A DNA stretch of 49,233 bases from Acidimicrobiia bacterium (GTDB taxonomy: Bacteria; Actinomycetota; Acidimicrobiia; Spongiisociales; JAHEDJ01), in contig JARGFH010000026.1 in assembly GCA_029210695.1 (NCBI GenBank), positions 1 to 49,233 of the forward strand. The letters run 5' to 3'. Below the pieces are notes generated by a model. That model ran no database searches. It was given only the letters and a program-made list of their open reading frames with translations, and was not told the origin of the DNA. This document shows positions 22,146-49,233 of this stretch, piece by piece. A program made the translations under genes and the position numbers. Every line of letters begins with the position of its first letter. Position 1 is the stretch's first letter.

Positions 22146-22197
22146 CGTTTTCGCGCGGGAATCGCTCCCCATACGGTGGGAATCCCGCGCGAAAACG
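22146..22197. repeat. 15-bp perfect inverted repeat between desulfurase gene and mnmA
   Basis: cgttttcgcgcggga at 22146..22160 and its exact complement at 22183..22197 enclose 22 nt. It fills most of the gap between two same-strand genes. Lacking a U-tract, it may be a processing or partial termination signal setting the ratio of the two products, or a dispersed palindrome similar in build to that at 16269..16320. Confidence 0.75.
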
Positions 22198-22211
22198 AAG
22201 TTGAAGGGAGT

Positions 22212-33682: not shown

Positions 33683-34135
33683 GTGCGGGTAGGAATTGGC
33701 GCAGATCACGCCGGCTACGCGTTGAAGGAGACCCTGGCGCGGATGCTTGCCGAGAAGGGTGTGGCCGTTACCGATTTCGGGACTCACACCGAGGAATCGG
33801 TCGACTATCCGGATTATGCGGCCGCGGTCGGCCGCGCCGTCCGCGACGGCCGGGTCGAACGCGGCATCGTGGTGTGCGGTTCCGGGGCCGGGGCGGCCAT
33901 CGCCGCCAACAAGCTGCGCGGCGTGCGGGCCGCCCAGGGAACCGACACGTATACGGCCCATCAGTGCGTCGAACACGACGACGTTAATGTGCTGTGCCTG
34001 GGGAGCCGGGTGACCGGGGTGGCGCTGGCTACGGAGATCGTCGAGGCGTTTATCGGCGCCCAATTCACCCGCGAGGAGCGCCACGTGCGAAGGCTCAACA
34101 AAATCCTCTCCCTCGAGGCGGAAGAGTCGGGCTGA
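33683..34135 (+). CDS. rpiB: Ribose-5-phosphate isomerase B
   Basis: Interconverts ribulose-5-phosphate and ribose-5-phosphate. The 150-residue protein shows GADHAGYALKETL at the N-terminus, the catalytic VVCGSGAGAAIAANK loop with a Cys base (enterobacterial-type rather than the Glu-type of mycobacteria), and the HDDVNVLCLGSR motif. GTG start with a purine-rich GAAGGATGGA upstream. The intergenic run before it, 33552..33682, holds no recognised gene. Confidence 0.93.
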   Translation: MRVGIGADHAGYALKETLARMLAEKGVAVTDFGTHTEESVDYPDYAAAVGRAVRDGRVERGIVVCGSGAGAAIAANKLRGVRAAQGTDTYTAHQCVEHDDVNVLCLGSRVTGVALATEIVEAFIGAQFTREERHVRRLNKILSLEAEESG

Positions 34136-34276
34136 CCTTCCTCTGATGGACCTTCCCCCAGAGGGACCCGTATTCCCTGAAAGTATCCAGGCGCCGAGAC
34201 GAGGTCTGCGCAGGAGTACAGGCAAGGCTTCCGATTGGAGGGATCTCGCCGAATCTAGTTTCAACCTCGAGAGAAG

Positions 34277-34978
34277 CTAGATGAGGCTCCTACCACCACC
34301 GACAATATGAACCTGGCCTGTGATGTACGACGCGTCTTCAGAGAGAAGAAACTCCACCAGGGCAGCCACCTCGTCGCCGCGGCCGGGACGACCAAGGGGG
34401 ATACGCGCCACCAGTTTGGCCAGCACCTCGGTTGGCATGGCTGCCGTCATGGGTGTGTCGATCAGACCCGGCGCGATGGCGTTGACACGGACCTTCGGCG
34501 CAAGCCGAATCGCCAGGGCGCGCGTGAGGCCAACCAGACCGCCCTTCGACGTCGCGTAGTTGTACTGCCCGAAGTTCCCTAGGTATGAGCGCGAGCTGAT
34601 GTTGATTACGGATGCTCCGTCACCCATCATCGGGATGAGCGAGGATGTGAGCCGATAGGCGGCACCGAGATTCACGTCGAGAACCTCGGAGAACTGGTCG
34701 GCTGTCATCTTCACGAGACGAGAATCCCGAGTGATTCCGGCATTGTTGACCAGTCCCCTGATGGAGAACCCTGAAGCGGCCTCGACGACGCACGCCACAC
34801 CCTCATTTGTGACCAAGTCCGCTTCCACAGCTATGGCTTGTGTACCGAGCTCAGCCGCCACCTCGGCGACTGATGGATCGCGATCAACGATGAGAAGGGT
34901 TCCCCGGCGCGCCAGGCGTTCCGCGATGGCCCGACCGATGCCCGACGCCGCCCCGGTGACAACGACAAGCGACTTCAT
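34277..34978 (-). CDS. SDR-family dehydrogenase (FabG-like), catalytically complete
   Basis: A 233-residue short-chain dehydrogenase. Cofactor motif GAASGIG (9-15), NNAG (78-81), and catalytic Ser (about 128), Tyr141 and Lys145 are present. The Asp in VDRDP after strand 2 suggests NAD(H). Probably oxidises a 3-hydroxyacyl-CoA or similar. ATG overlaps the stop of the half-length SDR-like gene (ATGA); the set CoxG-like, thiolase, half-SDR, SDR is one operon. Confidence 0.88.
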   Translation of the reverse strand: MKSLVVVTGAASGIGRAIAERLARRGTLLIVDRDPSVAEVAAELGTQAIAVEADLVTNEGVACVVEAASGFSIRGLVNNAGITRDSRLVKMTADQFSEVLDVNLGAAYRLTSSLIPMMGDGASVINISSRSYLGNFGQYNYATSKGGLVGLTRALAIRLAPKVRVNAIAPGLIDTPMTAAMPTEVLAKLVARIPLGRPGRGDEVAALVEFLLSEDASYITGQVHIVGGGRSLI

Positions 34979-35451
34979 GGCAGGGTCTTTCCTAGATGGC
35001 GGCTGCCGAGTCGTACAACCTCACCTGCAGGCCCGCCAGGTTCCAATGCAAGCAGTCGCGCCACCCATGCGGCCGTGGTCGCAGCTGGCGTGTCGTCTTC
35101 GATGGCGAGGACGTTCACAGGGACTCCGGCTTTCTGCATTTCAACGGCGGCCGACCGGGCGCCTGAAAGGAGACCGGTAGCCACCATCGCCGCTCCTGCG
35201 TCTCCGCCGGCGCCCAGCAAGTCCGCGTGCCAGACCACATAGACGATCGGAGCCGCGGCCATGACCGCCAAACGAGATAACTCGAACGCGGTCAACAGCT
35301 CGGCAGATACGTCGTGCCACTCGCTCCCGACGGTCCGGTCGGCCACGAACACCAGCCCCGACTCCGGGCCATCCTCAGCGATCGAGCTCCGCAGCGCCTC
35401 GGACAACTCCTCGTCGAGCACTCGGATACGAAGTTGGGCATGAGCGGTCAA
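34975..35451 (-). CDS. Half-length, non-catalytic SDR-like protein
   Basis: 158 residues from a TTG start at 35451, chosen because GGAGGGG lies 5 bases upstream and TTGA overlaps the thiolase stop. The product lacks the N-terminal glycine-rich nucleotide motif and the Tyr/Lys pair; the region GAAMVATGLLSGARSAAVEM aligns with the YxxxK helix of SDRs, with Ala/Met where Tyr would be. It ends with an SDR-like C-terminal strand pattern. It probably pairs with the next gene as a structural subunit, as BbsC does with BbsD in the toluene beta-oxidation pathway, but this is inference. Confidence 0.65.
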   Translation of the reverse strand: MTAHAQLRIRVLDEELSEALRSSIAEDGPESGLVFVADRTVGSEWHDVSAELLTAFELSRLAVMAAAPIVYVVWHADLLGAGGDAGAAMVATGLLSGARSAAVEMQKAGVPVNVLAIEDDTPAATTAAWVARLLALEPGGPAGEVVRLGSRHLGKTLP

Positions 35452-36659
35452 GTAGTCCCCTCCAAGATCAGAGCGATTCCCTGCCCGACCCCGATGCACA
35501 TCGTGGCCAGGCCGAAACGGATTGAATCGCGGTTCATCCCATGAACCAACGTTGTGAGGATCTTGGCCCCGGTTCCGCCCAATGGATGTCCGAGGGCTAT
35601 GGCGCCTCCAGATACGTTGACAATTTCGTTATCTGCACCCAGCAAATCGATGCAGGCGAGTGTCTGAGCGGCGAATGCCTCGTTCATCTCGATCATGCCC
35701 ACATCGTCGAGCGACATGCCGGCCCGATCCAGCGCTTTCTGAGTGGCTGGTACTGGTCCTATGCCCATCACATCGGGATGAACTCCGGCGGCGGCCGAGC
35801 CGACAATCCGGGCGAGCGGATTCAGCTGATGTCGAGCGATGCCCTCCTCAGTGGCCAGCAGCAAAGCAGCAGATCCGTCATTCATTGGACTGCTGTTCCC
35901 CGCCGTCACACTCCCGCCCTCTTTGAAGACCGGTCGAAGCGCCGCCAGCGCCTCGAGACTGGTGTCGGGGCGTGGCCCTTCGTCCCGATCGACTGTCGTC
36001 ACTCCCTTCCCGCGAGGATCCGTTGCCGCCTCGATCGGTTCGATTTCTCTGTCGAATCGCCCCGCCTTCTGAGCCCCCACGGCGCGTTGATGTGAACGCA
36101 ATGCGAACTCGTCTTGCCGTTCGCGACCGATACCGTATCGCTCGGCGACTACCTCGGCCGTCATCCCGAGACTGATGGGTGGGTATGCAATTTGCATGCG
36201 ATCGTTGACAAATCGCCAGCCAAGCACCGAGTTGGCCATCTGCGGAGGAGAGGCCGTGAAGCCGGCGGGCGGCTTGGCCAACACGAAGGGGGCCCTGCTC
36301 ATAGATTCGGAGCCTCCGGCGATCATCACATCACCCCAGCCATCCCGCATCGCCTGCACCGCCGATATCACCGCCTGCAAGGAGGACCCACACAAGCGAT
36401 TCACCGTCTGAGCCGGCACCTCGACTGGGAGACCGGCAAGAAGGGCGGCCATCCGGCCGACGTTGCGATTGTCCTCGCCTGCCTGATTGGCCGCCCCCCA
36501 AACGATGTCTTCGACGGATGCCGGATCAAGGCCCGGGTGGCGAGCCAGCAGACGCCCGATGGCATGGGCTGCGAGGTCGTCGGGTCGGACGTGGGCGAGT
36601 GCCCCTCCCAGCCTGCCGGTGGGCGTTCGGCAGGCATCTACGATGAACACGTTGGTCAA
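35448..36659 (-). CDS. Acyl-CoA thiolase, 3-oxoadipyl-CoA thiolase (PcaF)-like
   Basis: Cleaves a 3-oxoacyl-CoA with CoA. The 403-residue enzyme has the nucleophile Cys90 in NRLCGSSLQAV, NEAFAAQTLA, GGAIALGHPLGGTGAKI (His) and the second Cys in ATMCIGVGQG. The stretch from GAANQAGEDNRNVGRMAALLAGLP through GGSESMSRAPFV is strikingly like PcaF/PaaJ thiolases of aromatic degradation. Five bases after the CoxG-like gene and overlapping the half-SDR gene. An aromatic or dicarboxylic acyl-CoA substrate is inferred from the neighbours. Confidence 0.9.
   Translation of the reverse strand: MTNVFIVDACRTPTGRLGGALAHVRPDDLAAHAIGRLLARHPGLDPASVEDIVWGAANQAGEDNRNVGRMAALLAGLPVEVPAQTVNRLCGSSLQAVISAVQAMRDGWGDVMIAGGSESMSRAPFVLAKPPAGFTASPPQMANSVLGWRFVNDRMQIAYPPISLGMTAEVVAERYGIGRERQDEFALRSHQRAVGAQKAGRFDREIEPIEAATDPRGKGVTTVDRDEGPRPDTSLEALAALRPVFKEGGSVTAGNSSPMNDGSAALLLATEEGIARHQLNPLARIVGSAAAGVHPDVMGIGPVPATQKALDRAGMSLDDVGMIEMNEAFAAQTLACIDLLGADNEIVNVSGGAIALGHPLGGTGAKILTTLVHGMNRDSIRFGLATMCIGVGQGIALILEGTT
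35457..35463 (-). promoter_or_regulatory. Shine-Dalgarno that sets a TTG start
   Basis: GGAGGGG on the minus strand, 5 bases before TTG at 35451. It lies within the last codons of the thiolase gene and supports translational coupling. Confidence 0.65.
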
Positions 36660-36663
36660 CGGG

Positions 36664-37296
36664 CTATCTCCTCCACCATGCGATTGCCATCCAAACGACT
36701 GCTACTGCGACCAGCGCCAATCCGACGGGTATGAGGCGTCTGGCGATTGGAGCACGGGCCAACTCAAGCAAATCGACAGGCTTGCTTGGAGCTGTGCGAG
36801 AAGGGGGTGCGGCGGTATCACCCGCCAGATCTCCATCGGAAGCTGCGACGCTGAGAACATCACGCTCGAGGTTGCTGGCAAACTCCGCGATGATCTTCGA
36901 AGCAACGTCGTTTATGACGCCGCGTCCGAACTGGGCAACGGTGCCGGTGATGGTCATGTCGCAATCGATGGCGACTTCCGTGTTATCGGACCCCTTGCCT
37001 TCGTGAAGCAAAACGATGATTTCCGCCTCGGCGCTGCCCATGCCCCTGGTTTCACGGCCCTTGCCGCGGAGGAGCATTCGTCGTCGGTCTTGATCGACCT
37101 CCGCAACGGTCAGTTTGCCGTCGTAGCTCGCCGCCATAGGCCCCACCTTGACATTGACGGCGCCGTAGTAATCATCGCCATCGACCCTCTGAAGCTCAGC
37201 CCCCGGCATGCAAGGAGCGATGCGCTCGAAGTCCAACAAGAGGTTCCAGGTGTCTTCTATCGACCGGGCAACCTGAAAGCTATCTTCGATCTGCAC
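36664..37296 (-). CDS. CoxG-like SRPBCC protein with C-terminal membrane anchor
   Basis: 210 residues; the first 150 form a CoxG/carbon-monoxide-dehydrogenase-subunit-G domain (FQVARSIEDTWNLLLDFERIAPCMPGAE is the family opening, then the GTVAQFGRGVI helix). A linker with TAAPPSRTAPS and a single C-terminal helix (LIPVGLALVAVAVVWMAIAWW) follow, so it is probably tethered to the inner side of the membrane. In other bacteria CoxG recruits molybdenum hydroxylases to the membrane; none is in this window. GTG start, leaderless. Confidence 0.85.
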   Translation of the reverse strand: MQIEDSFQVARSIEDTWNLLLDFERIAPCMPGAELQRVDGDDYYGAVNVKVGPMAASYDGKLTVAEVDQDRRRMLLRGKGRETRGMGSAEAEIIVLLHEGKGSDNTEVAIDCDMTITGTVAQFGRGVINDVASKIIAEFASNLERDVLSVAASDGDLAGDTAAPPSRTAPSKPVDLLELARAPIARRLIPVGLALVAVAVVWMAIAWWRR

Positions 37297-37303
37297 CCTA
37301 TTG

Positions 37304-37309
37304 AGTATA
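37304..37309 (-). promoter_or_regulatory. -10 element of the CoxG-thiolase-SDR operon, with flanking inverted repeat
   Basis: TATACT on the minus strand, 7 nt before the GTG at 37296. An AATTGT / ACAATT inverted repeat with about 15 bp between the arms overlaps the core region upstream, a candidate operator. The area is clearly AT-richer than its surroundings. Confidence 0.55.
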
Positions 37310-37545
37310 ATTGTTAAACTTCATGCCGCACAATTGGAAACGCCGCACGATCGGCGAACGAAGCTAGATCATGTCCCACGCTGGCACAAGCCCCGCTGGC
37401 GTCCATCCGCGGCCTGATCGCGACCACGATTCGGCAGACTGAGCGGAAGTGCGACAAGATACCCACGAAGCCGACCTATTCACCTGGCGGAGGAGAAGCA
37501 GCCGAGTGTCCGTCGGCGCGGGAATCCAAGCTCAGTCCAGCAGTA

Positions 37546-38547
37546 TCAATGATTCAGTTCAACGACTGGCGCAAACAACCCGTCAATCGGCTGTATGTCC
37601 GCGAGGAACCCCTGCTGTACAAGATACCGCATTAGCGTCTCCAGCGTCTTGCGGTTGGGCTCAAGCCCGTAAGCCCAGAAGTCGGACCCGAAGAGATCGT
37701 CAGCCTCCGCTGTGGCCTCATGCTGCCATGGCAGCATTGTCTTCAAGGCTCCACTCCGGTGGTACAACTCCCAACACACATTCCGCGCTTCCACGAAGGC
37801 GTCATAGATGCTCTCGGCGACCCACGGGTGTCGTTCGAACAGCGACTCCTTCATCACAACGGTGTGCATGATCGGGAAGATCCCAGTTGATCCGTAATAC
37901 TCACGCTCGGCCTCTACATGGTCGGGGAACAGGCGGCGAACCATGCGAGAAGAACTCAATGAGTCGGGCACGCGAGGGCTGATGAGTGCGTCGAGGGCGC
38001 CCCGCGCGAGCATGTCGCTCATCGAATCCCCGGCAGGGATCGGCTCGATGTCCACGGGATCGGCCATCTCAAAGACCAGCGACGACGAGGCGATTCTCTG
38101 CGTAGACTTCGGCTCATTGAGTCCGCCCTCAAACCAGCGCACGCTGCGAAGGTCAACACCGTACTCGTCGCGAAGAATGCCCCGCACCCAGACCGCGGCC
38201 GTGACGCGGTACTCAGGCACACCGATTCGTTTCCCGTCAAGGTCTTTCGGGGTCTCAATCCCGGATGCTGCGTTGACGAACACGAAGCCATGCCGGAACC
38301 GCCGGGATGGGAAGACCGGCAACGCTACGAACGGAAACCCCCCCTGTACCTTGCGCCCGAGGTAGTAGGCACACGACATTTCTGCCAGATCGAAGGCGTT
38401 GTTCTTCACCATCCTCGAGAACGCCTGACGCGACTCCTTGACTGACAAATAGACCAGATCGATTCCCGAAGGGCGAACCTCACCGGTTCGCAGCGCCTCG
38501 GTGCGATCGTATGGCCCGCAGGCCAGGGTCAGTGTCAATCTCTCCAT
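37546..38547 (-). CDS. 4,5-dihydroxyphthalate decarboxylase (Pht5)-like protein, cytoplasmic
   Basis: 333 residues with the type 2 periplasmic-binding fold but no signal peptide, matching the Pht5 group of 4,5-dihydroxyphthalate decarboxylases and their relatives. It begins LTLTLACGPYDRTEAL; DLAEMSCAYYLGRK and LDGKRIGVPEYRVTAAVWVRGIL are typical. An enzyme acting on an aromatic carboxylate, or a cytosolic binding protein, is possible. GGAGG is found about 12 bases before the ATG. It is divergent from the ThDP enzyme gene. A second, shorter member lies at 48446..49159. Confidence 0.8.
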   Translation of the reverse strand: MERLTLTLACGPYDRTEALRTGEVRPSGIDLVYLSVKESRQAFSRMVKNNAFDLAEMSCAYYLGRKVQGGFPFVALPVFPSRRFRHGFVFVNAASGIETPKDLDGKRIGVPEYRVTAAVWVRGILRDEYGVDLRSVRWFEGGLNEPKSTQRIASSSLVFEMADPVDIEPIPAGDSMSDMLARGALDALISPRVPDSLSSSRMVRRLFPDHVEAEREYYGSTGIFPIMHTVVMKESLFERHPWVAESIYDAFVEARNVCWELYHRSGALKTMLPWQHEATAEADDLFGSDFWAYGLEPNRKTLETLMRYLVQQGFLADIQPIDGLFAPVVELNH

Positions 38548-38666
38548 ATCGGCAAATGCCTCCCTGTTCCCTGCGGTGCGCCAGCCGAAGCGGTCAGTTG
38601 TCCGGCGCCAGGACCGGACCGCGAGACAACAGCGCCGTCGGAGGTTCGGAGCAGTAGTGCAATCAT

Positions 38667-38686
38667 CTAGTGAAGTCGCATACTAG
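38667..38686. promoter_or_regulatory. Possible operator in a divergent gap
   Basis: CTAGT, 10 bp, ACTAG inverted repeat in the 274-bp region between the Pht5-like gene and the ThDP gene. Arms of only 5 bp, so support is modest. The rest of the gap (38548..38821) holds no gene. Confidence 0.3.
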
Positions 38687-38821
38687 GCTCCCGAAGCAAG
38701 AGATCGCATGATGGTCAACGCAACCGGCTCAGGTATGAATCGTAGGGAAGCGCTAGAGGATTCGATCAACGATTCAACTCACGCCTCGACACCTTGACCC
38801 TTGTGGAGGAGTAGGAGATCG

Positions 38822-40633
38822 ATGACGGATCGCAACACCATCACGGGACCAGCTACAGAACGGCCGGTGAACGTAGAGCAGCAGACGGGCAACCCTGAGT
38901 ACGGTTCCGATCTGATCGTTGACCTTCTCGACGCCATGGGCATTGACTATGTCGCCATGAATCCGGGTTCGACCTTCCGTGGCATCCACGATTCAATCGT
39001 GAATTACGGCGCGAACCGCGCCCCGAAATTGCTGCTCGCTCTCCACGAAGCCGTCGCCGTCGGGATTGCCCATGGCTACGCCAAAGCCGCCGGGCGGCCG
39101 ATGGCCGTCGCGTTGCACGATGTCGTCGGTTTGGGCAACGCGCCCACCGCTATCTACGAAGCCTGGACTGATCGAGTCCCGATCGTCATTCTCGGAGGAA
39201 CTGGTCCAGTAGACGCCAGCCTTCGCCGACCCGGCAACGACTGGATTCACACAGCCCTGATCCAGGGCAATCTGATCCGCGACTTCGTCAAGTGGGACGA
39301 CCAGCCGGCCAGCATCGCCGCCGTCCCTGAGTCACTGCTCCGAGCCCACCGCGTAGCCGTTTCTCGACCTGCCGGCCCGGTATATGTCTGTTTCGACGCC
39401 CTCGTACAGGAGGGCCGCATCGATCATCCGATCGACTTCCCTGAGGTCGATCGTTTCGCGCCGGCCCGGCCGATCTGGGGCGACCCGAACGCAGTGGATG
39501 AGGCCGCCCGGATGCTCGTAGAAGCCGAGTTCCCAGTCATCACCTCCGGCCGGGTTTGCAGGGATCAGGCCGGGCTCGATGGGCTCGTGGAGTTGGCAGA
39601 ACTCCTGGCCGCGCCAACCTTTCCGATATATCGCAATGGATTGAACTTCCCATCGGCGCACCCTTTGAACTTCATGGGACAGGCCGAATCGTATGTGCCG
39701 GGTGCGGACGTCATCCTCGGGGCCGAACCCCTCGACTTCACCCACGTAACCCGTCGATTTCCGACGAGGGCGATCGGTCAGGGTGCGCCGATCACGAGGG
39801 ATGACGCACGCTTCATCAGCGTTGGACTCGACGATCTCGCACTTCGAAGCTGGGCTTCTGAGTTCCAGCGCCTTTCCCCTGTTGACATACCGATCATGGC
39901 CGACACCGCTGTGGGTCTCCACCAGCTCGCCGAGGCTTGTCGGTCAATCATCGACAGCACAGCCTCGGAAAAGATCGAGGCACGCAGGGTGCGACTCCTC
40001 AGTGACCACAAGGAGCTCATGGAGCGCGCCGCGCGGAGAGTGGCCGACACGTGGAACGACCAGCCGATCTCCCTGGGACGCCTTCTCACGGAGGTCCGGG
40101 ATGCGGTGAGCCAAGAGGACGAATTTCTCCTTCTCAAGAACCGTTTCTGGATCCCAGGAATCTGGGATATCGCCCATGTCGATCGGTTCCTGGGCGACGC
40201 CTGCGGCGGCACGATGGGCTACGGCCCTCCAGCCATGATTGGCGGTGCCCTAGCCGTGGCCGGGACGCCGCGTTTTGCGGTAGGCATTACCGGAGACGGC
40301 GACTTCAACTACACGGCTTCCGCCCTTTGGACGGCCGCGCACTACGAGATTCCCTGCCTGATCGTCGTGTTCAATAATCGGTCCTACCAATCGGATGTCG
40401 AGTTCCAGGACCACATTGCCCGCGAGCGCAACCGCCCTGTGGAAAACCGCAGTATCGGCCACGCCATGGATTCCCCTCCCGTTGACATCGCGGGACTGGC
40501 GCGGAGCTACGGATGCGCCGGAATGGGACCCGTGGAGAGTCCTTCCGATCTGGCTCCGACACTCGAGCGTGCCGTCCGTCAAGTTAAGGAAGGGCGTACA
40601 GTGGTCGTCGATGTTCTGGTCCAGCCGCGCTGA
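38822..40633 (+). CDS. ThDP-dependent enzyme of the acetolactate synthase/decarboxylase superfamily (first)
   Basis: 603 residues. The cofactor-activating Glu76 lies in LLALHEAVAVGIAHGYA, and the Mg/ThDP motif is GDGDFNYTASALWTAAHYEI...VFNN. All three domains (PYR, central, PP) are of normal length. ATG at 38822 follows GGAGGAGTAGGAG. Its transcription starts divergently from the Pht5-like gene. It could be a decarboxylase or carboligase for a 2-oxo acid; it is not a standard IlvB because the regulatory subunit is absent and the conserved region differs. Confidence 0.85.
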   Translation: MTDRNTITGPATERPVNVEQQTGNPEYGSDLIVDLLDAMGIDYVAMNPGSTFRGIHDSIVNYGANRAPKLLLALHEAVAVGIAHGYAKAAGRPMAVALHDVVGLGNAPTAIYEAWTDRVPIVILGGTGPVDASLRRPGNDWIHTALIQGNLIRDFVKWDDQPASIAAVPESLLRAHRVAVSRPAGPVYVCFDALVQEGRIDHPIDFPEVDRFAPARPIWGDPNAVDEAARMLVEAEFPVITSGRVCRDQAGLDGLVELAELLAAPTFPIYRNGLNFPSAHPLNFMGQAESYVPGADVILGAEPLDFTHVTRRFPTRAIGQGAPITRDDARFISVGLDDLALRSWASEFQRLSPVDIPIMADTAVGLHQLAEACRSIIDSTASEKIEARRVRLLSDHKELMERAARRVADTWNDQPISLGRLLTEVRDAVSQEDEFLLLKNRFWIPGIWDIAHVDRFLGDACGGTMGYGPPAMIGGALAVAGTPRFAVGITGDGDFNYTASALWTAAHYEIPCLIVVFNNRSYQSDVEFQDHIARERNRPVENRSIGHAMDSPPVDIAGLARSYGCAGMGPVESPSDLAPTLERAVRQVKEGRTVVVDVLVQPR

Positions 40634-40672
40634 CCTCATCCGCCTGCTGATGGCCAGTGCAGTCAGATTCAC

Positions 40673-41101
40673 TCAGTCGGAAATCGTGCCCCGATTGGCA
40701 GGTCGATCAGCCTTCACGGCGACCACAGGACACCCCGCGCCCAGCAACACGCCCTGCTCATAGCTGCCCAGCAGCATCTTGCCAACGCGACTTCTCCGCC
40801 GCAGTCCCATGACAATCAGGTCGACGTCGAACTCCCCGGCAGTTTTCAGTACGACGTGGTCGAGTGATGACGCCCCGGCAGACCACCGTGTCTCACACTG
40901 GATTCCATCCGAGACGAGGCGGGTTTCGAGTTCCTCGAGCAAAGTGCGTAGCCGCTCGACCTCACTCCCGGTCTGCTCACTGGCCTCGGCATGGCCCATC
41001 AGCAGAATGGTCCCCATGTGGAGGCGCGCCTCGGCGACCGCATATTCGACAGCCGCCTCGCCCTCAGGAGTTGGCAATACGGGTACCAGGATCAACATCA
41101 T
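40673..41101 (-). CDS. Universal stress protein (UspA family), ATP-binding type
   Basis: 142 residues from ATG 41101 (an in-frame GTG at 41113 is the alternative). The core LILVPVLPTPEGEAAVEYAV and the ATP motif GLRRRSRVGKMLLGSYEQGVL (G2xG9xGS type) point to an ATP-binding Usp. It is the last gene of the SDR, ThDP enzyme, deiodinase-like, Usp set, 75 bases after the previous stop. Role in this operon unknown. Confidence 0.82.
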   Translation of the reverse strand: MMLILVPVLPTPEGEAAVEYAVAEARLHMGTILLMGHAEASEQTGSEVERLRTLLEELETRLVSDGIQCETRWSAGASSLDHVVLKTAGEFDVDLIVMGLRRRSRVGKMLLGSYEQGVLLGAGCPVVAVKADRPANRGTISD

Positions 41102-41176
41102 GTCACCTTTCACATCTGATCATGCCTGCCGCTAATGCTATACGGCGGCGGCCTCGTCCAAGTATCCGACTCCTGA

Positions 41177-41911
41177 TCACGAAGTGGCCAGAGCAGCGAT
41201 GTGCTCCCTGATAGCCGATTCGAACCCGATTGGATCGAAGAAGTGAGGCCCCAGTCCACATCTCCACACGACCCTTCCCGCGTTATCAAGCAGGTATAGC
41301 CTGCCCGGCCAGGCCATGTAGGCATCTCCGACGGTGTCCTCCATATCATCAAGCACCATCGGGAAGGAATAGGAGTATCGCAGCCTGCAGGCAGCCGCCA
41401 CCCCGGCGCGTTCGTCCTCCGTCAGCGGCTGTGCAAACAGCACCCCATCATCGAGATTGGCGGACGCTTGCGCCCCGTCGGTCGGATGGGCCTCTTTGAT
41501 ATAGACGCACAGGAACCGGACGCGGTCGCTGAACTCCTTCGCTATTCCATCGAGGCGCACGGCCTCACTCCGGAAGTGCGGTCAGGTATAGGACCCGAAG
41601 ATCAGCCCGACCGGTTTGCCTCGCAGGCTGGATAGGCCCATCAAATCACCGGTACGCTTGCCGGTTGCAGTGAGTAATTCGAGTTCGAAATCTGGCGCTT
41701 CGTCGCCCAACTGCGGCGATACCAAATCGCGTTCCATGCGGTCCAGGAACCGCCGGCGCATACCTTTCCGGGTCCAGCCCCGGAGTTCAAGTTCCGCTTC
41801 GCTGATCGACGCGATCCTGTCCTCAATCACCTGCGGCAGGTCGAGGGACACGTCAGGCCCACTTGAGGCAGGACCCGAGTCGGTCACTCTGTCAGGTTGT
41901 GTCAAAGTCAC
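41177..41911 (-). CDS. Iodothyronine deiodinase-like selenoprotein (in-frame TGA read as Sec)
   Basis: Two reading frames, 41582..41911 and 41177..41560, are in the same register and separated only by TGA at 41584..41582 and seven sense codons. Joined they give 244 residues that match the deiodinase family: GLIFGSYT-TGA-PHFR equals the FGSCT-Sec-PPF active site, followed by FLCVYIKEAHPTDG and FPMVLDDMEDTVGDAYMAWPGRLYLLDNAGRVVW. The TGA is codon 110. A downstream hairpin fits a bacterial SECIS. The thioredoxin-fold domain follows about 70 helical residues. Bacterial relatives carry Cys or Sec; possible activities are dehalogenation or peroxide reduction. GTG start overlaps the ThDP gene stop. 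A nonsense mutation is the alternative. Confidence 0.8.
41545..41584 (-). promoter_or_regulatory. Candidate bacterial SECIS element after the in-frame UGA
   Basis: Fifteen nt after UGA starts a 5-bp stem GAGGC/GCCUC (41566..41562 with 41556..41552) with apical loop CGUGC, whose second base is G. A lower stem UUCC/GGAA (41575..41572 with 41548..41545) extends it across an internal loop. Distance and loop match the known bacterial SECIS rules (loop about 16-37 nt from UGA, a G in the first two loop bases). Confidence 0.6.
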
Positions 41912-43620
41912 CCACTTTTCGGATGCGATTGCATGCGTCGCTCAATCATCGCCTTGCTGAGAGGGCTAGTGATGCTCCGAATGGCAACGTTGATCAGAGC
42001 CGGTTTCCCCGAGTTCCAGGCCCGCTCGAAAGCCCCTCCGAGTTCTTCTGGCTTCTCGACAAACTCTCCATGGCCGCCCAATTCGGTCACCAGCCGATCG
42101 TAGCGAACCGGCCGCAGATCGGTGGCTACCGACCGGCCGTAATACGCCAGCTGAAACTGCCTATCGATACCCCACGCCGAGTCGTTGCCCACGATCGCGA
42201 TGATCGGAAGATTGTGCCGAACGGCGGTGTCGAACTCCATGAAGTAGAACCCGACTCCGCCATCACCGATGAATAGGACCGAGCGGGAACTAGGGTCGGC
42301 CACTTGACAACCGAGCGCCAGCGGGAGACCGGCGCCAAGGTGACCTAGGGGACCAAGTCGAAGCCAGCGTCCCGGACGGCGAGCATCCAGGTAGCTACGG
42401 CCCCACTGGACGTAGTCCCCCGTGTCGAAGATTAGGAAGTCGGATTCGTCGAGAAACGGTTTCACCGCCTCTACCACGGTCATCGGGTGGAGAGGGAGCT
42501 CAGGGTCATTGCCGGCTTCCGCCATTTCCTGTAGTTGATCGGTCCGCACAGAATTGAGGACGTCTACCCAGTCGCCGCACCCTTGCCAAGCGAGTTTCCT
42601 CGCAGCGTCCGCGAGTTGGACTACCACGGTTCCAACGTCCGCGCATAGCCCAATCTCAACCTCCCGGTAACGGCCGATTTCGTCCGGATCAGGGTCGACT
42701 TGCAGCACTCTCGTGTCTATACCGACCCGGGGAGGGCGGCCATACGCGAGTCGGAAGTCGAACTTCTTGCCAAGCAGAAGGAGGACATCCGCTTCTGCAA
42801 TATGACGGGCGGCGTGATTCAACGCCGGGTCGGCGTATCCCAGACACAGATCGTGCCGATCGTCGACGAGGCCACGAGCGGTCTCCACCGTGAACAGGGG
42901 TATGCCGGTTGTCTCCACCAATCCCTGAAGTGACGATGGGTCAACTCCGAATGCGGCTCCGGCCCCTGCGACAATAACGGGCCGCCGAGCGGATCGGAGG
43001 ATCTCGATCACACGATTCACTGCGTTCGCGTCCATACCGGACCTCTCGGTGGCAGCCGTGCCCAAAGCCTCCACCTTCGCCGCGTCGCTTTCATCAACGG
43101 TCGCCTCCTGCACATCCAGCGGAATCGTGATGTGGGCTGGACCTGGTCGACCGCCCGTTGCGCTCCGGAAGGCGGCGTGAATCGCTTCTGGGACAGCTGC
43201 GGCATTGCGAACTATCTCCGCCCGCTTACTCAGGGGTGCCGCAGTTGAGATCTGGTCCAGTTCCTGGAGGGCGTCCATATTCTCATACGCCAGCTCAGAA
43301 CGACCGCTGATATGGATGACCGGGACTTCCTGACGAGAGGCAACGGCGAGGCCCGCCAGGGAGTTGGCGTGGCCGGGTCCGCCGGTGACCATGCAAACGC
43401 CGGGACGACCGGTCGCCCGACTCCAGGCGTCGGCCATATGAACCGCAGCCGACTCGTGCCGGGTGTCTACAAACCGGATCCCGTAGTCGATAGCGTGGTC
43501 GCACAAAGGCAGCGTATGATCGCCGACAATGGTGAATATCGTGTCCACGTCGTGTGCCCGTAGCGCCCTAATGGCAAGCTCTGCGCCACTCACTCGGCCC
43601 ATCTCAGTGGCCCCCCGCAT
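41908..43620 (-). CDS. ThDP-dependent enzyme of the acetolactate synthase/acyl-CoA lyase superfamily (second)
   Basis: 570 residues with Glu56 in DTRHESAAVHMADAW and ThDP motif IGDGGVGFYFMEFDTAVRHNLPIIAIVGNDSAWG. The overall pattern is nearest to acetolactate synthase-like, oxalyl-CoA decarboxylase or 2-hydroxyacyl-CoA lyase enzymes. ATG 43620 has GAGG upstream; ATG 43602 is the alternative. It follows an SDR gene by 6 bases and its stop overlaps the selenoprotein start. Substrate not assignable. Confidence 0.83.
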   Translation of the reverse strand: MRGATEMGRVSGAELAIRALRAHDVDTIFTIVGDHTLPLCDHAIDYGIRFVDTRHESAAVHMADAWSRATGRPGVCMVTGGPGHANSLAGLAVASRQEVPVIHISGRSELAYENMDALQELDQISTAAPLSKRAEIVRNAAAVPEAIHAAFRSATGGRPGPAHITIPLDVQEATVDESDAAKVEALGTAATERSGMDANAVNRVIEILRSARRPVIVAGAGAAFGVDPSSLQGLVETTGIPLFTVETARGLVDDRHDLCLGYADPALNHAARHIAEADVLLLLGKKFDFRLAYGRPPRVGIDTRVLQVDPDPDEIGRYREVEIGLCADVGTVVVQLADAARKLAWQGCGDWVDVLNSVRTDQLQEMAEAGNDPELPLHPMTVVEAVKPFLDESDFLIFDTGDYVQWGRSYLDARRPGRWLRLGPLGHLGAGLPLALGCQVADPSSRSVLFIGDGGVGFYFMEFDTAVRHNLPIIAIVGNDSAWGIDRQFQLAYYGRSVATDLRPVRYDRLVTELGGHGEFVEKPEELGGAFERAWNSGKPALINVAIRSITSPLSKAMIERRMQSHPKSG

Positions 43621-43626
43621 TCAACC

Positions 43627-44421
43627 TCAAAGAGTCCACGATGACCCACCGTCGAAGTTCACGGCCGTACCGGTGATGTATCCGGCGCGCTCGGACACAA
43701 GGAAGGCGATCAGATCAGCCGCCTCGTCAGCGTCACCCAGGCGGCCAAGGGGTATGCCCCGGGCTTCCGCCAGCCGTCCGTACCAATCGTCTGCCGCCAC
43801 GTCCGGTGCCTCGAGAAGTCGACGGCGCTCCCACTGGGCAGTCTTCACCGCGCCCAAACAGACTGTGTTCACGAGAATGTTGTCGGCCGCGTACTCTCGG
43901 GATAGCGCCTTCGTCATGGCCATGGCGGCGGCCCGACTGGCGACCGTCGGAAGGGAGCGCGGCAAGGGAGCTTTCGCCGTCACGTGAGTGATATTGATGA
44001 TCCGGCCTCCGCCCCGCTCGCGCATCAGCGGGATGGCCAGGCGGGTACAACGGACAGCCGAGAAGAACTTCTGATCGAAATCGTAGGCCCACAAAGCGTC
44101 GTCGATCTCGTCAAATGGGTTTGCGGCATGGGTCCCCGCGTTGTTCATAAGGATGTCGAGGCCCCCAAAATGGTCGGCCGTCTGGCGGATGAACTGCTCG
44201 GTTTCTTCTGCCGAGGTCATGTCCGCCGGGATTGCGAGCACCTCACCGCCTGTCTCGTCGCGGATCTCCTGTGCGGTACGCTCGAGCACGTCGACCCGCC
44301 TCGCGCAAATTGCTACCTTGGCTCCCTCAGCGGAAAGGCGCCGGGCGACCGCACGGCCCAGCCCTTCGCTCGCGCCACTGATCGCCGCGATCTTGCCGTC
44401 AAGGCCCAGTTCTATAGCCAT
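43627..44421 (-). CDS. SDR-fold protein lacking the catalytic Tyr and Lys
   Basis: 264 residues with a good nucleotide motif SGASEGLG and NNAG (93-96), so it probably binds NAD(P). However the catalytic helix reads PTVASRAAAMAMTKALS: Tyr is Thr159, Lys is Arg163, and the Ser of strand 5 is Thr/His (ITHVTA). The rest is FabG-like. It may act by a different mechanism or be a binding or scaffold subunit. AGAGGATGAG lies before ATG 44421. First gene of the operon that includes the selenoprotein. Confidence 0.8.
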   Translation of the reverse strand: MAIELGLDGKIAAISGASEGLGRAVARRLSAEGAKVAICARRVDVLERTAQEIRDETGGEVLAIPADMTSAEETEQFIRQTADHFGGLDILMNNAGTHAANPFDEIDDALWAYDFDQKFFSAVRCTRLAIPLMRERGGGRIINITHVTAKAPLPRSLPTVASRAAAMAMTKALSREYAADNILVNTVCLGAVKTAQWERRRLLEAPDVAADDWYGRLAEARGIPLGRLGDADEAADLIAFLVSERAGYITGTAVNFDGGSSWTL

Positions 44422-44483
44422 CTCATCCTCTCTAGAGCTCTTGCTGAGTGTTCTCATCCCGGTGAGTGATTGCCAGCACGACA

Positions 44484-44494
44484 GTAGATACTAC
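44484..44494. promoter_or_regulatory. Small palindrome upstream of the SDR-ThDP-selenoprotein operon
   Basis: GTAG ATA CTAC in an AT-rich part of the 153-bp gap between two SDR genes. Position fits an operator, but arms of 4 bp are weak evidence. Confidence 0.25.
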
Positions 44495-44574
44495 CCAGAA
44501 ACATCTTACTGATTCAAACACTTTGACCACATCCCGAGAGCATTCTGACTTCAGACCGAAGTCCCCCAACACTT

Positions 44575-45363
44575 CTACTGCATGTATGAGCCGCCATCGA
44601 CTACCAGCGTCTGCCCAGTTACGAAGTCGCTGTCGGGTGAGGCGAAGAAGGCGACCACGCCGGCGACATCACTCGGCCGCTCAACTCGCTGGATCGCTCG
44701 ACCGGAGAGGGCGCCTCGCCGAAGCTCCAAGGTCTCAGCATCCGGGTTGACCTCGCTCAGTGTGCTTCCTGGTGCAACACAGTTCACGAGTATCCCGTGC
44801 GGCCCGAGTTCGCGAGCCAGGGACTTGGTGAACCCCAGCATGCCGGCCTTGCTCGCCACGTAGTGAATCCGGTTCACCGAACCCTTGAAGGCAGACGCTG
44901 AACCGATGTTGATGATTTTCCCATATCCCAGCGCTTTCATGCTGGGTACTACGGCTCGGCAGGCCAGCCAGGCGCCTTTGAGGTTGACATCCAACAGATC
45001 ATCCCACTCGTCAACCGGAACCTCGTCGAAAGGGACGCGAGACATCTTGATAGTCGAAAACAGCGCGGCGTTGTTGACGAGGATGTCGATGCGATCAGCG
45101 ATCGCCAGGGTCCGGTCGGCGAGTTCTCGTAGGCTTTCTTCCTGACGAACATCGGTTTTCGTGGCAACACACAGCAATCCATCCCCACGGATTTGGCGAG
45201 CTGCTCGTTCCCCCTCCTCTCCATCCACATCGGCGACGACAACATGAGCCCCTTCGTGGGCGAGTCGATGCGCAAGGGCGAGCCCAATGCCGTGCGCGCC
45301 TCCGGTCACGATCGCAACACGACCATCCAGACGACGGTATGGCTGATCGGCTTGGCTCGTCAT
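44575..45363 (-). CDS. SDR-family dehydrogenase, catalytically complete
   Basis: 262 residues. Cofactor motif TGGAHGIG, an Asp after strand 2 in VVADVDGEE (NAD preference), NNAA, and the triad Ser (IGSASAF), Tyr and Lys (HYVASKAG) are all present. C-terminal FVTGQTLVVDGGSYM is standard. Could oxidise a secondary alcohol or dihydrodiol. A -10-like TATGAT ends 6 bases before the ATG, so leaderless. Divergent from tctA. Confidence 0.88.
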   Translation of the reverse strand: MTSQADQPYRRLDGRVAIVTGGAHGIGLALAHRLAHEGAHVVVADVDGEEGERAARQIRGDGLLCVATKTDVRQEESLRELADRTLAIADRIDILVNNAALFSTIKMSRVPFDEVPVDEWDDLLDVNLKGAWLACRAVVPSMKALGYGKIINIGSASAFKGSVNRIHYVASKAGMLGFTKSLARELGPHGILVNCVAPGSTLSEVNPDAETLELRRGALSGRAIQRVERPSDVAGVVAFFASPDSDFVTGQTLVVDGGSYMQ

Positions 45364-45369
45364 AAATCC

Positions 45370-45397
45370 ATCATATCATTTGACCCAATGATCCCAA
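45370..45397 (-). promoter_or_regulatory. Promoter of SDR gene: TTGGGA, 16 bp, TATGAT
   Basis: On the minus strand -35 TTGGGA at 45397..45392 and -10 TATGAT at 45375..45370, with the ATG 6 nt after the -10. Leaderless arrangement. Confidence 0.5.
45375..45392. promoter_or_regulatory. 18-bp palindromic operator candidate between divergent genes
   Basis: ATCATT, 6 bp, AATGAT: a perfect inverted repeat covering the -35 of tctA and the spacer of the SDR promoter. A regulator binding here would control both directions. No regulator gene lies in the island. Confidence 0.45.
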
Positions 45398-45409
45398 CAG
45401 TAGTAGCGT
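45380..45409 (+). promoter_or_regulatory. Promoter of tctAB: TTGACC, 18 bp, TAGCGT
   Basis: -35 TTGACC at 45380..45385 and -10 TAGCGT at 45404..45409. This transcript has a leader of about 85 nt before the tctA ATG. Confidence 0.5.
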
Positions 45410-45501
45410 CCAAGCCGGTCAAGACTCGGACCTTGATGCGCGGCTAAGCCGGTGCCTCAGGGGCCGATTTCGCGAGAAACAGGAGCGCGAGGCGGCACAT
45501 C

Positions 45502-47025
45502 ATGCTCGACGCATTTGGATCGGCCCTGACCCAGATATTCAGCTGCCCGTGCGTGGGTGGCGTTATCCCATCGAGGTTGGGGTTTCTCGCGATCGGTGTG
45601 TTCATGGGGCTTGCCCTGGGGGTCATCCCAGGATTGGGCGGACTCGTGGGGATGGCCCTTCTCCTGCCGTTCACGTACGGAATGGATACTCCTGCCGCTG
45701 CGGCAATAATGATGGGCGTGCTCGCCGGTGTGAACCTCGGCGACATGGTCTCCTCGGTGTTGTTCGCAGTTCCGGGATCCGCAGCCTCGCAGGCGACAAT
45801 ACTCGACGGACATCCAATGGCCAGGAAGGGCGAGGCTGGTCGCGCCTTCGGGGCCGGCTACACGGCGTCGTTGATGGGCGGCATCTTCGGAGTCATAGCC
45901 CTCTCCGCCGTTCTCCCGGTAATGCGCCCTATCGTGCTTGCCTTCGGAGCTCCCGAGTTCTTCATGATGGGGATTGTCGGTATCTCGATGGTCGGTTCGC
46001 TGAGCGGGCGGGCCCCGATCAAGGGTATCATCGCGGGCGCGCTGGGATTGCTTATCGGCACGGCGGGACTCGATCCTCAGTCTGGCGCCCTACGCTGGGA
46101 TTTCGGTCAACTGTACCTTTGGGATGGGATTCCGCTCGTTGGCATCGCCCTCGGCCTCTTTGCCATCCCCGAACTCATAGACCTCACAATTGAGGGTACG
46201 GCAATCAGCAGCGTAGGGATGAAGATTGGCTCTGTGTGGGGCGGAGTTCGAGATGCGGTCAAGAACTGGTTTCTGGTGCTTCGCTGCAGTGTGCTGGGTG
46301 TGTGGATTGGAGCTGTGCCCGGTCTCGGCGCGCCGGTCGTCGACTGGTTCGCATACGGGCACGCGATGCAAACGGAAAAGGGGGCCGCCGAGACATTCGG
46401 CAAGGGAGACGTCCGTGGGGTCATTGCTGTTGAGGCAGCAGCAAATGCCAAGGAGGGCGGTGCCTTCATACCGACAATTGCCTTCGGCGTGCCCGGGAGC
46501 GCATCCATGGCGCTGATCCTTGGGGCCTTGCTGATTCAAGGGATACAGCCCGGCCCAGACATGGTGACCGAGCACCTTGACCTGACCTACGTCTTTATCA
46601 TCACGCTCGCGCTGGCGAACGTTCTTGCGACGACCGTGAGCTTGCTGTACGCCAGACAGATCGCGCGGATTGCCCACATACCCATCCACATCCTTGCACC
46701 GATGCTGCTGGTGGTGGTGTTCCTTGCCGCGTTCCAGACCAGTCGGAGTGTCGGTGACCTGATAGTACTGCTCGCCTTTTCCGCGATTGGCTGGATGATG
46801 AAGCGGTTCCGATGGCCGCGTCCTCCCGTGATCTTGGGAGTGGTTCTCAGTCGCATCATCGAGAACTACCTCTTCATTTCCGTGTCTCGGTATGGCTGGA
46901 CCTGGTTGTACCGCCCCATCGTGATGATCCTCATCGTCGTTGCGGTTTTCAGCATCTGGTATGGGTTTCGCGCAAAGAACAAGGCACCGAGCACCTCCGA
47001 GCCGTCGAGCGACTCTGCAATATGA
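45502..47025 (+). CDS. tctA: Tripartite tricarboxylate transporter large permease
   Basis: 507 residues with about 11-12 hydrophobic helices. Family landmarks: GVIPGLGGLVGMALLLPFTYGMDTPAAAAIM, SVLFAVPGSAASQATILDGHPMARKGEAGRAFGA, and the second-half repeat GAVPGLGAPVVDWFAYGHA and ANAKEGGAFIPTIAFGVPGSASMALILG. Secondary carrier for di-/tricarboxylates or aromatic acids, powered by ion gradients and needing TctC. ATG overlaps nothing upstream; the stop overlaps tctB. Confidence 0.93.
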   Translation: MLDAFGSALTQIFSCPCVGGVIPSRLGFLAIGVFMGLALGVIPGLGGLVGMALLLPFTYGMDTPAAAAIMMGVLAGVNLGDMVSSVLFAVPGSAASQATILDGHPMARKGEAGRAFGAGYTASLMGGIFGVIALSAVLPVMRPIVLAFGAPEFFMMGIVGISMVGSLSGRAPIKGIIAGALGLLIGTAGLDPQSGALRWDFGQLYLWDGIPLVGIALGLFAIPELIDLTIEGTAISSVGMKIGSVWGGVRDAVKNWFLVLRCSVLGVWIGAVPGLGAPVVDWFAYGHAMQTEKGAAETFGKGDVRGVIAVEAAANAKEGGAFIPTIAFGVPGSASMALILGALLIQGIQPGPDMVTEHLDLTYVFIITLALANVLATTVSLLYARQIARIAHIPIHILAPMLLVVVFLAAFQTSRSVGDLIVLLAFSAIGWMMKRFRWPRPPVILGVVLSRIIENYLFISVSRYGWTWLYRPIVMILIVVAVFSIWYGFRAKNKAPSTSEPSSDSAI

Positions 47026-47549
47026 CGAAACTGCTTCGACGCCACTCGACCTCCGCTTTCACGCTCGCCGTTGTGTTGTTCATCGCCGGGGTCATCTACG
47101 GTTCGACCGGCATGAAGCATCAGGCCAGGTTCTTCCCGCTGGCGATTGGAATACCCACGCTTGTCCTGGCCATCATCCAGCTGGCGACCGAGATCGTCCG
47201 CACGCAACGTCGTGAAGAGGGCGAAGCGCAGGAAGATGAGGGGATCCTCGATCTGGCGTTTGACCGTGACGTGCCGCTCGATGTCGTCGTCCGTCGCGGG
47301 GGGACCCTCGCGTTGTGGATCGTTGGCTACTTCACTGGGATTCTGTTGTTCGGTTTCGTCATCGCAAGCCCTGCCTTTGTCCTTCTGTATCTTGTCTTCC
47401 GAGCCCGCGCCAAGGTCTGGATCATTGTGCTCTGCATCCTGCTGGTTCTGGCGCTGCACATTGGAGTCTTCGATCGGGTGCTGCACGTTCCCTGGCTGAA
47501 AGGTGTATGGCCCGGTCCGCAGAAATGGGTACTCGATTTGTTCAGCTAG
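47022..47549 (+). CDS. tctB: Tripartite tricarboxylate transporter small permease
   Basis: 175 residues and four hydrophobic helices. TLAVVLFIAGVIYGSTGMKHQARFFPLAIG is a typical TctB start, and a charged cytoplasmic loop (RREEGEAQEDEG) separates helices 2 and 3. The ATG overlaps the tctA stop (ATGA). The extracytoplasmic binding protein TctC is not next to it, contrary to the usual gene order. Confidence 0.88.
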   Translation: MTKLLRRHSTSAFTLAVVLFIAGVIYGSTGMKHQARFFPLAIGIPTLVLAIIQLATEIVRTQRREEGEAQEDEGILDLAFDRDVPLDVVVRRGGTLALWIVGYFTGILLFGFVIASPAFVLLYLVFRARAKVWIIVLCILLVLALHIGVFDRVLHVPWLKGVWPGPQKWVLDLFS

Positions 47550-47647
47550 ACCGACTGCTTGATGTTGCCGCCGGAACCCATGTGGAATAGGACAACTTGC
47601 TGAGTACCAGGCCAAGGCCGAACGAACGACAACTGAGGAGACCAATC

Positions 47648-47668
47648 ATGACAAGGAAGTCACGATGA
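47648..47668 (+). CDS. Six-codon leader reading frame before the bicupin gene
   Basis: ATG at 47648, preceded by GAGGAG, encodes MTRKSR and stops at TGA 47666..47668, which overlaps the cupin ATG (ATGA). It may help load ribosomes on the cupin gene; it may also be a chance frame. The rest of the gap 47550..47647 shows nothing recognisable. Confidence 0.3.
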   Translation: MTRKSR

Positions 47669-48405
47669 CAGGGTCGAGTGAGTACTACTACAACCTCGAG
47701 GAGCAGATGACCGGTGCCCCCGATCTGGAAGGCGTCAGTCACTGCCGACTCGAAGGGACCCTGCTACGAATCGAGCGGTGGGACGCGCTCGGCGCCGGCC
47801 CCGCCTCAATCCCAATCGACGGCGTAGCCGAAGCCTTCGTCCTGCCGCTCACCGGCACAGTTCGAGTCCACCCCTCAGATGTTGACGAGCGGCTGGAGGT
47901 CGGGCTGGGCGAAGTATGTCTGCTTCCCGATGCCTGGAACAACAGGTACCAACTTGACATCGAAGGTGGAAGTTGCATCGTCGCGGGGATGCCCATGGCG
48001 CGGTCAACGCAGGCATACCCGACTCAGCGTTCAGAACCGGAGAGTTTCCGATTCGATGAAGTTCTGGAAGACAAGTACGAGGGATGGCGCTTCTTCGCTC
48101 GTGACGGCGAGTACATAACCGTCGGCTGCAGCTATCGAACGGCACCACCACCGAGCCAGGAAACACCTCACACCCATCCTGGTGAGCAATTCAACGTCCC
48201 ACTCGAGGGGTTGTTTGAAATGACCATCGGCGGTGTCACCCACGAGATCGAGCCGGGATGGGTGTCGCATATCCCGCCGGAGACCCTGCACACGGGCCTT
48301 CACCGTCGCTTCCCGTACTTCCAGCTGATCTTCTCGACGCCGCCCAGAGGCAAGCAGTACGACGAGTTCCTCGCCGGGATCTACGACGCAAGAATCGACA
48401 CATGA
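47665..48405 (+). CDS. Bicupin protein
   Basis: 246 residues made of two cupin folds. The C-terminal one has the metal site: HTHPGEQFNVPLEG, then SHIPPETLHTGLHR supplying the last His. The N-terminal cupin (IDGVAEAFVLPLTGTVRVHP) lacks His and is probably structural. May be a dioxygenase, isomerase or decarboxylase acting on a small organic acid; it does not resemble gentisate dioxygenase closely enough to name. AAGGAAG precedes the ATG. Confidence 0.75.
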   Translation: MTGSSEYYYNLEEQMTGAPDLEGVSHCRLEGTLLRIERWDALGAGPASIPIDGVAEAFVLPLTGTVRVHPSDVDERLEVGLGEVCLLPDAWNNRYQLDIEGGSCIVAGMPMARSTQAYPTQRSEPESFRFDEVLEDKYEGWRFFARDGEYITVGCSYRTAPPPSQETPHTHPGEQFNVPLEGLFEMTIGGVTHEIEPGWVSHIPPETLHTGLHRRFPYFQLIFSTPPRGKQYDEFLAGIYDARIDT

Positions 48406-48445
48406 AGACGCGTCGTGAGCCCTCGAGAAGAGGGCACGGTTGAGC

Positions 48446-49159
48446 ATGCTTGCGAAACTGGCATTGGTGGGATATGACAGGGTTGCCGCGGTGGCGGACG
48501 GCCGGGTCGGTGTCGAGGGCGTCGAGTTCGAGGTCTCGCTCCTCGCCCCCTCCGAAATCTTCTTTCGAATGCTTGCTGAAGATGCATTTGACATTTCGGA
48601 GATGTCGCTTTCGTCAACACTCATCCACAAACTCCGCGGACGGGATTGGACGGTCCTTCCCGTCTTTCCCTTCCGGAGTCTCTTCCACACGGGCTTCCTC
48701 GTTCGTGATGAAATCAACGAACCGGCAGATCTTCGAGGTGGACGGATCGGTCTGGTCGAGTACCAAGTAACAGCCGCCCTCTGGGGGCGCGGTGTGCTCG
48801 CCGATGAGTTCGATGTCGACCCACGGGACGTTACCTGGTATGTCGAGCGAAGCGGCGCTCTCAGTCACAGCGGGGCCGGCGGATTCCTGCCGCCAGAAGG
48901 CGTTCGAGTGGAGCCCATCCCCGACGACTCGTCCTTGGCGGCGCTACTTGTGGCCGGCGAGTTGGATGCGGTCCTGCCGAGTCCAATGCCCGGCATCGCC
49001 AATCGCTTCAATCGGACGGATGAGCGCACCTTGCTGGCTTCGCCAGGGATCAAGCGGCTCTTCCCTGATCCCCTCGCCGAGGCCCGCCGCTACTACGCCA
49101 AGCATGGATTCCTCCATATCAACCACCTGGTCGTGGTCAAGAACGCTCTGGTGGGTTGA
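48446..49159 (+). CDS. Pht5/dihydroxyphthalate decarboxylase-like protein, C-terminally truncated
   Basis: 237 residues from ATG 48446 (TTG 48440 is possible). It is a relative of the 37546..38547 product: FDISEMSLSSTLIHKLRG, LRGGRIGLVEYQVTAALWGRGVL and PDPLAEARRYYAKHGFLHINHLVVVKNAL line up with it. It stops at TGA 49157..49159, about 95 residues before the other ends. In the next frame EPPWV continues the alignment (ERHPWV in the paralogue), so an extra G in GGG at 49153..49155 may be a frameshift; a stop follows soon after. May be a pseudogene or a sequencing error. Confidence 0.65.
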   Translation: MLAKLALVGYDRVAAVADGRVGVEGVEFEVSLLAPSEIFFRMLAEDAFDISEMSLSSTLIHKLRGRDWTVLPVFPFRSLFHTGFLVRDEINEPADLRGGRIGLVEYQVTAALWGRGVLADEFDVDPRDVTWYVERSGALSHSGAGGFLPPEGVRVEPIPDDSSLAALLVAGELDAVLPSPMPGIANRFNRTDERTLLASPGIKRLFPDPLAEARRYYAKHGFLHINHLVVVKNALVG

Positions 49160-49233
49160 ACCGCCCTGGGTTTGATGGAGACTCGGTTGTTTGGTTTCCA
49201 AGTCATCCGGTAGTGGTCAGTTGAGCGTAGTGA

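Follow-up and report, generated by a model that had tools for sequence, protein, structure and literature searches.

A predicted deiodinase-like selenoprotein gene with a SECIS-like hairpin in a member of the Acidimicrobiia

The window, meaning the whole stretch of 49,233 nucleotides that was analysed, carries on its minus strand a reading frame for a deiodinase-like protein with a TGA codon inside it. Translated from 41911 to 41177, the frame gives 244 residues, and the only internal TGA is at 41584..41582. The gene and its parts are as follows, Sec standing for selenocysteine.

41177..41911, minus strand: predicted deiodinase-like selenoprotein gene, 244 codons from a GTG at 41911, with its terminal TGA at 41179..41177
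41585..41911, minus strand: upstream segment, comprising an N-terminal helical extension and the first half of the thioredoxin fold
41582..41584, minus strand: putative Sec codon, an in-frame TGA that stands for residue 110 in FGSYT-U-PHF and occupies the catalytic position of PF00837
41180..41581, minus strand: downstream segment, comprising the YIKEAH motif and the remainder of the thioredoxin/peroxiredoxin-like fold, with stronger constraint at the protein level than the upstream segment
41849..41851, minus strand: alternative GTG start, the more likely one, where VSLDLPQ aligns to MDIELPQ of the homologues

A preliminary description of this DNA, which named no strand, had recognised two same-frame segments with the TGA and seven sense codons between them, and had expected gene callers to split the gene in two. 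Mechanical calling of open reading frames does exactly this. It yields one frame of 109 amino acids (41582..41911) and one of 127 (41177..41560) on the minus strand, the second beginning at a GTG seven codons beyond the TGA.

The position of the true start affects the numbering. In the alignment, homologues begin at the equivalent of the GTG at 41851..41849, which is residue 21, and the structure model has pLDDT below 50 at residues 1-5 and 7-13 of the 244-residue product. For these reasons the protein may be 224 amino acids long, with Sec at position 90.

The two segments belong together. When the joined 244-residue translation is compared with PF00837 (T4_deiodinase), as had been suggested, it scores 65.8 bits, the cut-off being 27 (E 4.7e-18), and the match covers residues 66-226, running across the TGA. 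Likewise, a search of the whole genome with PF00837 recovers the window gene with one TGA inside the match. Together with the single confident fold described below, this bears out the earlier view that both halves form one deiodinase-like protein, a label that is right by family and by fold.

The simplest rival explanation is that the TGA is a real stop, so that the two frames represent two genes or a pseudogene. A standard gene caller does see two open reading frames, and TGA serves as a stop elsewhere, including at the end of the window gene itself. A scan of genome contigs provides the comparison that bears on this. It found 53 related loci, and among the family members aligned, the codon opposite residue 110 is TGA in 28 loci from other genomes and TGT or TGC in 8. 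The Cys codons belong to remote homologues. All relatives with 61-74% identity carry the label Alphaproteobacteria or Proteobacteria; more distant TGA forms come from Chloroflexota, Planctomycetota, Neomarinimicrobiota, a deltaproteobacterium and another actinobacterium. The homologous frames are open to their end except for the TGA at the Sec position. Stops elsewhere in the frame of close relatives, which had been put forward as evidence that would count against a selenoprotein, do not appear; in close relatives the codon in question is again TGA. A sequencing error is very unlikely, given that other assemblies contribute 28 homologous loci with the same TGA.

Constraint on the protein continues past the TGA, where the preliminary description had noted continuing homology. 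Against six close relatives, dN is 0.17-0.27 after the TGA and 0.29-0.46 before it, and every dS value that was calculable exceeds 1. These values point to purifying selection that persists downstream of the TGA. Neither a stop nor a pseudogene nor a sequencing error fits, because the TGA is conserved, the frames are otherwise open and the downstream half is the more constrained of the two; moreover, both halves are modelled together as one confident structure. The TGA conservation and the downstream constraint rule out a stop between two genes, and the probability left to this explanation is negligible.

Several further loci were also seen. Four phylum matches (L096-L099) have an in-frame TGA somewhere. 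A distant second actinobacterial PF00837-like group (L100, L102, L105 and L101) has TGA at the Sec position and stable downstream hairpins. The Rhodospirillaceae bin SRR5494785_bin.81 contains two different TGA-form deiodinase-like genes, L056 and L050, the first of which adjoins putative ATP synthase subunit genes.

The arrangement by which a bacterial selenoprotein is recognised, a hairpin just 3' of the UGA with a G in its small apical loop, is present in the window.

41551..41567, minus strand: bacterial SECIS-like hairpin with a 6-bp stem (5 core pairs) and the 5-nt loop CGUGC, supported by covariation, synonymous shuffles and fold

Its loop runs from 41561 to 41557, and the loop G is at 41560. 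The preliminary description had pointed to a hairpin with a loop G at SECIS distance; the element is found at 41567..41551, and its significance comes from the covariation and shuffles of 29 sequences. Taken by itself, the window hairpin is unremarkable, with a dinucleotide z of -0.8 and about 4-5% of synonymous shuffles equalling it. The case for a SECIS therefore rests on comparison.

The comparison uses a gap-free alignment of 60 nt from the TGA in these 29 sequences. Columns 18-23 pair with columns 29-34 and enclose a loop of 5 nt, the second position of which is G in every sequence (29/29). Across the alignment 88.5% of cells pair, compared with 31-49% for slid partners; both sides have changed in 14 cells. 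Stem changes include GAG..CTC, AAG..CTT and CAG..CTG, in which a Leu codon varies synonymously at its third base in step with the first base of a Glu, Lys or Gln codon. A complete 5-bp stem occurs in 24 of the 29 sequences, versus a mean of 2.6 and a maximum of 9 in 2000 synonymous-codon shuffles, a test that controls for the protein sequence and leaves the relatedness of the sequences outside its control.

Decoding UGA as Sec depends on dedicated machinery. Absence of selA, selB or selC (tRNA-Sec) had been named as a ground for rejecting the selenoprotein reading, and this ground falls away: these genes and selD are all present in the genome, an assembly of 3.9 Mb that is 97.85% complete. The tRNA-Sec scores 73.3 bits and has the anticodon tca. 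SelB (327.8 bits over its frame) and SelA (433.8 bits) lie side by side on another contig, C80, where selB is adjoined by a WhiB gene, the basis in this analysis for assigning the host to the Actinomycetota. SelD scores 398.6 bits and has an in-frame TGA of its own. The machinery is general in the order, since SelA exceeds its cut-off in 84 of the 99 related genomes. As a separate observation, SelD (L022, C20:13659-14588, minus strand) is itself a predicted selenoprotein, reading GSGUACK.

The UGA might instead be read as Trp, Cys or another residue, through a changed code or a suppressor. The frame would be open under any code in which TGA specifies a residue. However, the residue aligned at this position is Cys, which is typical of Sec/Cys exchange, and both the Sec machinery and the SECIS-like hairpin are present. 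A changed genetic code is ruled out because TGA also terminates the window gene, and non-Sec decoding as a whole has almost no probability. On these comparisons of sequence, the window gene very probably encodes a selenoprotein and belongs to the bacterial deiodinase-like (PF00837) family, which is already known.

The fold of the protein was modelled with AlphaFold from 34 homologues, giving a mean pLDDT of 90.8. The top Foldseek matches in the PDB are Dio2 (9h48, TM 0.79 by target) and Dio3 (4tr3, 0.71), with ResA-like proteins and peroxiredoxins ranking behind them. A sequence profile likewise places Dio3 first (E 8.8e-37). The TGA aligns with Sec170 of Dio3, which agrees, like the TGA, TGT and TGC codons of the homologues, with the earlier placement of the codon at the family's Sec/Cys site. 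With Dio3 residues numbered as in PMC7506546, the alignment shows identical counterparts of Ser167, Thr169, Sec170, Tyr197, Glu200, His202, Arg225 and Arg260. In contrast, Trp207, His219, Phe258 and Arg275 are replaced by Ala, Pro, Pro and Leu. This residue-by-residue comparison indicates that the core which positions Sec has been kept and the hormone-binding surroundings have not. From the set that binds thyronine in Dio3 (His202, Arg275, His219, Trp207 and Phe258), only His202 remains. A true iodothyronine deiodinase is thus unlikely, as the thyronine-binding residues are not all kept.

Two other sites in the downstream segment are of interest for the chemistry of the protein.

41486..41494, minus strand: Glu140-Ala-His142, the counterpart of Dio3 Glu200-Ala-His202, invariant in 34 of 34 aligned proteins
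41387..41389, minus strand: codon of Cys175, the proposed resolving cysteine, conserved in all of the 27 Sec forms in the alignment

Cys175 sits in the helix formed by residues 165-179, and Cys is also found there in two of the seven Cys forms. By this pattern it stands an even chance of being the resolving cysteine for oxidised Sec110. The actinobacterial L100, L102 and L105 have the motif U-P-Y-C, with a Cys three residues after Sec that could serve in place of Cys175.

A Sec-dependent, peroxiredoxin-like thiol oxidoreductase mechanism is the moderately favoured expectation, and the activity would most likely be the thiol-dependent reduction of a peroxide, a disulfide or a related electrophile. 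During translation, SelB with Sec-tRNA(Sec) would bind the hairpin just past the UGA, and selenocysteine would be inserted at residue 110. The product would be a soluble selenoprotein of the bacterial deiodinase-like family with a thioredoxin/peroxiredoxin fold. Sec110 would act as the nucleophile, held by a network of Ser107, Thr109, Tyr137, Glu140 and His142 that Dio3 also has, and would attack an electrophile such as a peroxide or a disulfide. Cys175 would then resolve the oxidised selenium, and thioredoxin or a comparable thiol system would reduce it.

The genes next to the selenoprotein gene, and the larger region to which it belongs, are the following.

41908..43620, minus strand: thiamine-pyrophosphate (TPP) enzyme gene, directly upstream, its stop overlapping the first candidate GTG
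40673..41113, minus strand: universal stress protein gene, just downstream
34139..49233, no strand assigned: island with the selenoprotein gene, absent from the sister genome G001, its right edge lying past the end of the contig

The selenoprotein gene follows the gene for the TPP-dependent enzyme and two short-chain dehydrogenase genes, with an overlap or a short gap depending on the start chosen. It is possibly co-transcribed with the TPP enzyme gene, and the whole cluster may be a catabolic operon. No conserved neighbourhood was found between the window and the homologues, the flanking genes being common only to close relatives and differing from those in the window, and the context consequently gives no substrate. 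Among the other genes of the island are a thiolase, a CoxG-like protein, a substrate-binding protein, two TPP enzymes, several short-chain dehydrogenases (SDRs), a TctA/TctB transporter and a cupin; the island (34139..49233) resembles an acquired catabolic module.

This setting is relevant to another explanation, in which the protein is a true reductive dehalogenase (a deiodinase or debrominase) that acts on natural iodo- or bromo-aromatics within a catabolic island, using the selenenyl-halide chemistry of animal deiodinases. Its attraction lies in the conserved Sec and the equivalents of Ser167, Thr169, Tyr197, Glu200, His202 and Arg260, in a fold nearest to Dio2 and Dio3, and in neighbours (TPP enzymes, SDRs, the thiolase and the TctA/TctB transporter) that suggest catabolism. 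It is opposed by the four substitutions at the equivalents of Trp207, His219, Phe258 and Arg275, by neighbouring genes that show no conserved link to halogen metabolism, and by a literature search that gave no reported activity for bacterial members. Such a dehalogenase is improbable here. The broader proposal, that bacterial Sec-containing deiodinase-like proteins are horizontally spread, selenium-dependent reductive dehalogenases of natural haloaromatics and a counterpart, perhaps even the source, of thyroid deiodination, is likewise improbable. The thiol oxidoreductase mechanism is the one preferred.

The island begins directly after rpiB (33683..34135). To its left, the window from 17008 to 34138 is collinear with the same-genus genome G001 at 92-93%, and nothing beyond 34138 matches. 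LigA is 94% identical between the two. After rpiB, G001 has a serine-protease-like gene where the window has a short-chain dehydrogenase. In a search of 198 related genomes the window gene is the only TGA-form match, two others having remote Cys forms. In a tree, the window protein lies inside a set of 11 rows that are otherwise Pseudomonadota, with support 100/98. Because the island is missing from a 92%-identical sister and the protein is nested among Alphaproteobacteria, the gene was in all likelihood acquired horizontally. Its source is most likely an alphaproteobacterial lineage, either directly or by way of it, and the recipient would have been an actinobacterium already possessing Sec machinery.

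The same nesting could also arise if a genuine selenoprotein gene lay on a misbinned or chimeric piece of another organism (contig C26 as a whole, or the right 15 kb of it), so that the Sec machinery was not its own. The absence of the gene from the sister genome would fit this too, as would a GC content of 0.60-0.62 over most of the final 15 kb, compared with about 0.645. Two observations weigh against it. The left two thirds of the window are collinear with a same-genus genome (with LigA at 94%), and the tetranucleotide profile of the right part correlates with the genome at r 0.84-0.89, versus 0.26-0.74 for the alphaproteobacterial loci tested. Since the composition of the island matches that of the host genome, misbinning is argued against and is distinctly improbable; horizontal acquisition is the preferred reading.

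A strongly palindromic repeat was also seen at 22140..22207. It is about 55-65 bp long, folds at -44 kcal/mol (z -6.2) and behaves as a REP-like dispersed element, with dozens of copies on both strands in the genome and in G001.

Bacterial deiodinase-like genes have been predicted since 2005; what is new here is a member in a new host and a SECIS with comparative support. A literature search found no paper that joins selenoproteins with Acidimicrobiia. The locus is a clear example of a gene split by standard annotation, with Sec decoding supported genome-wide. For an uncharacterised family it provides a mechanism that can be tested (Sec110 with Cys175), together with evidence that hosts already equipped with Sec machinery can gain deiodinase-like selenoprotein genes by horizontal transfer. 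Bacterial relatives of this kind could illuminate the origin of deiodinase chemistry.

The closest known system is the group of bacterial deiodinase-like selenoproteins. In 2005, four Sec and six Cys sequences were predicted in Sargasso Sea data, with a redox function suggested (PMC1088965), and 22 Sec sequences were listed in 2008 from GOS, in a table without a motif (PMC2398784). Reviews of 2022 and 2026 include the group with a UxxC redox motif (PMC9312934, PMC13188914). The window protein shares with this group PF00837, a bacterial SECIS, the existence of Sec and Cys forms, a prokaryotic host and a proposed redox function. It differs in that its host is an actinobacterium with an apparently horizontal gene and, unlike the motif of the reviews, it has U-P-H-F in place of UxxC, with the invariant Cys175 instead. 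The NCBIfam model NF038285, "deiodinase family protein", matches residues 65-234 with its C-terminal half at 167.7 bits, although this is under the curated cut-off of 250 and the first 174 positions of the model are missing.

Compared with AhpC/TSA peroxiredoxins and ResA-like thiol oxidoreductases, the protein shares the thioredoxin fold and gives a weak AhpC-TSA Pfam match (27.7 versus 26 bits), but its similarity to them in sequence and fold is lower than to deiodinases. The vertebrate iodothyronine deiodinases Dio1-3 (4tr3/4tr4, 9h48) are the best profile and fold matches, with the FGSxTU Sec site, the Ser/Thr/Tyr/Glu/His network and YIxEAHPxDG in common. In contrast to them, the window gene has a bacterial-type SECIS within its coding region and its product an N-terminal helical extension in the model. 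Relative to Dio3, the window protein lacks the equivalents of His219, Phe258, Arg275 and Trp207, of which the Arg275 position also varies between the types of animal deiodinase (PMC7506546).
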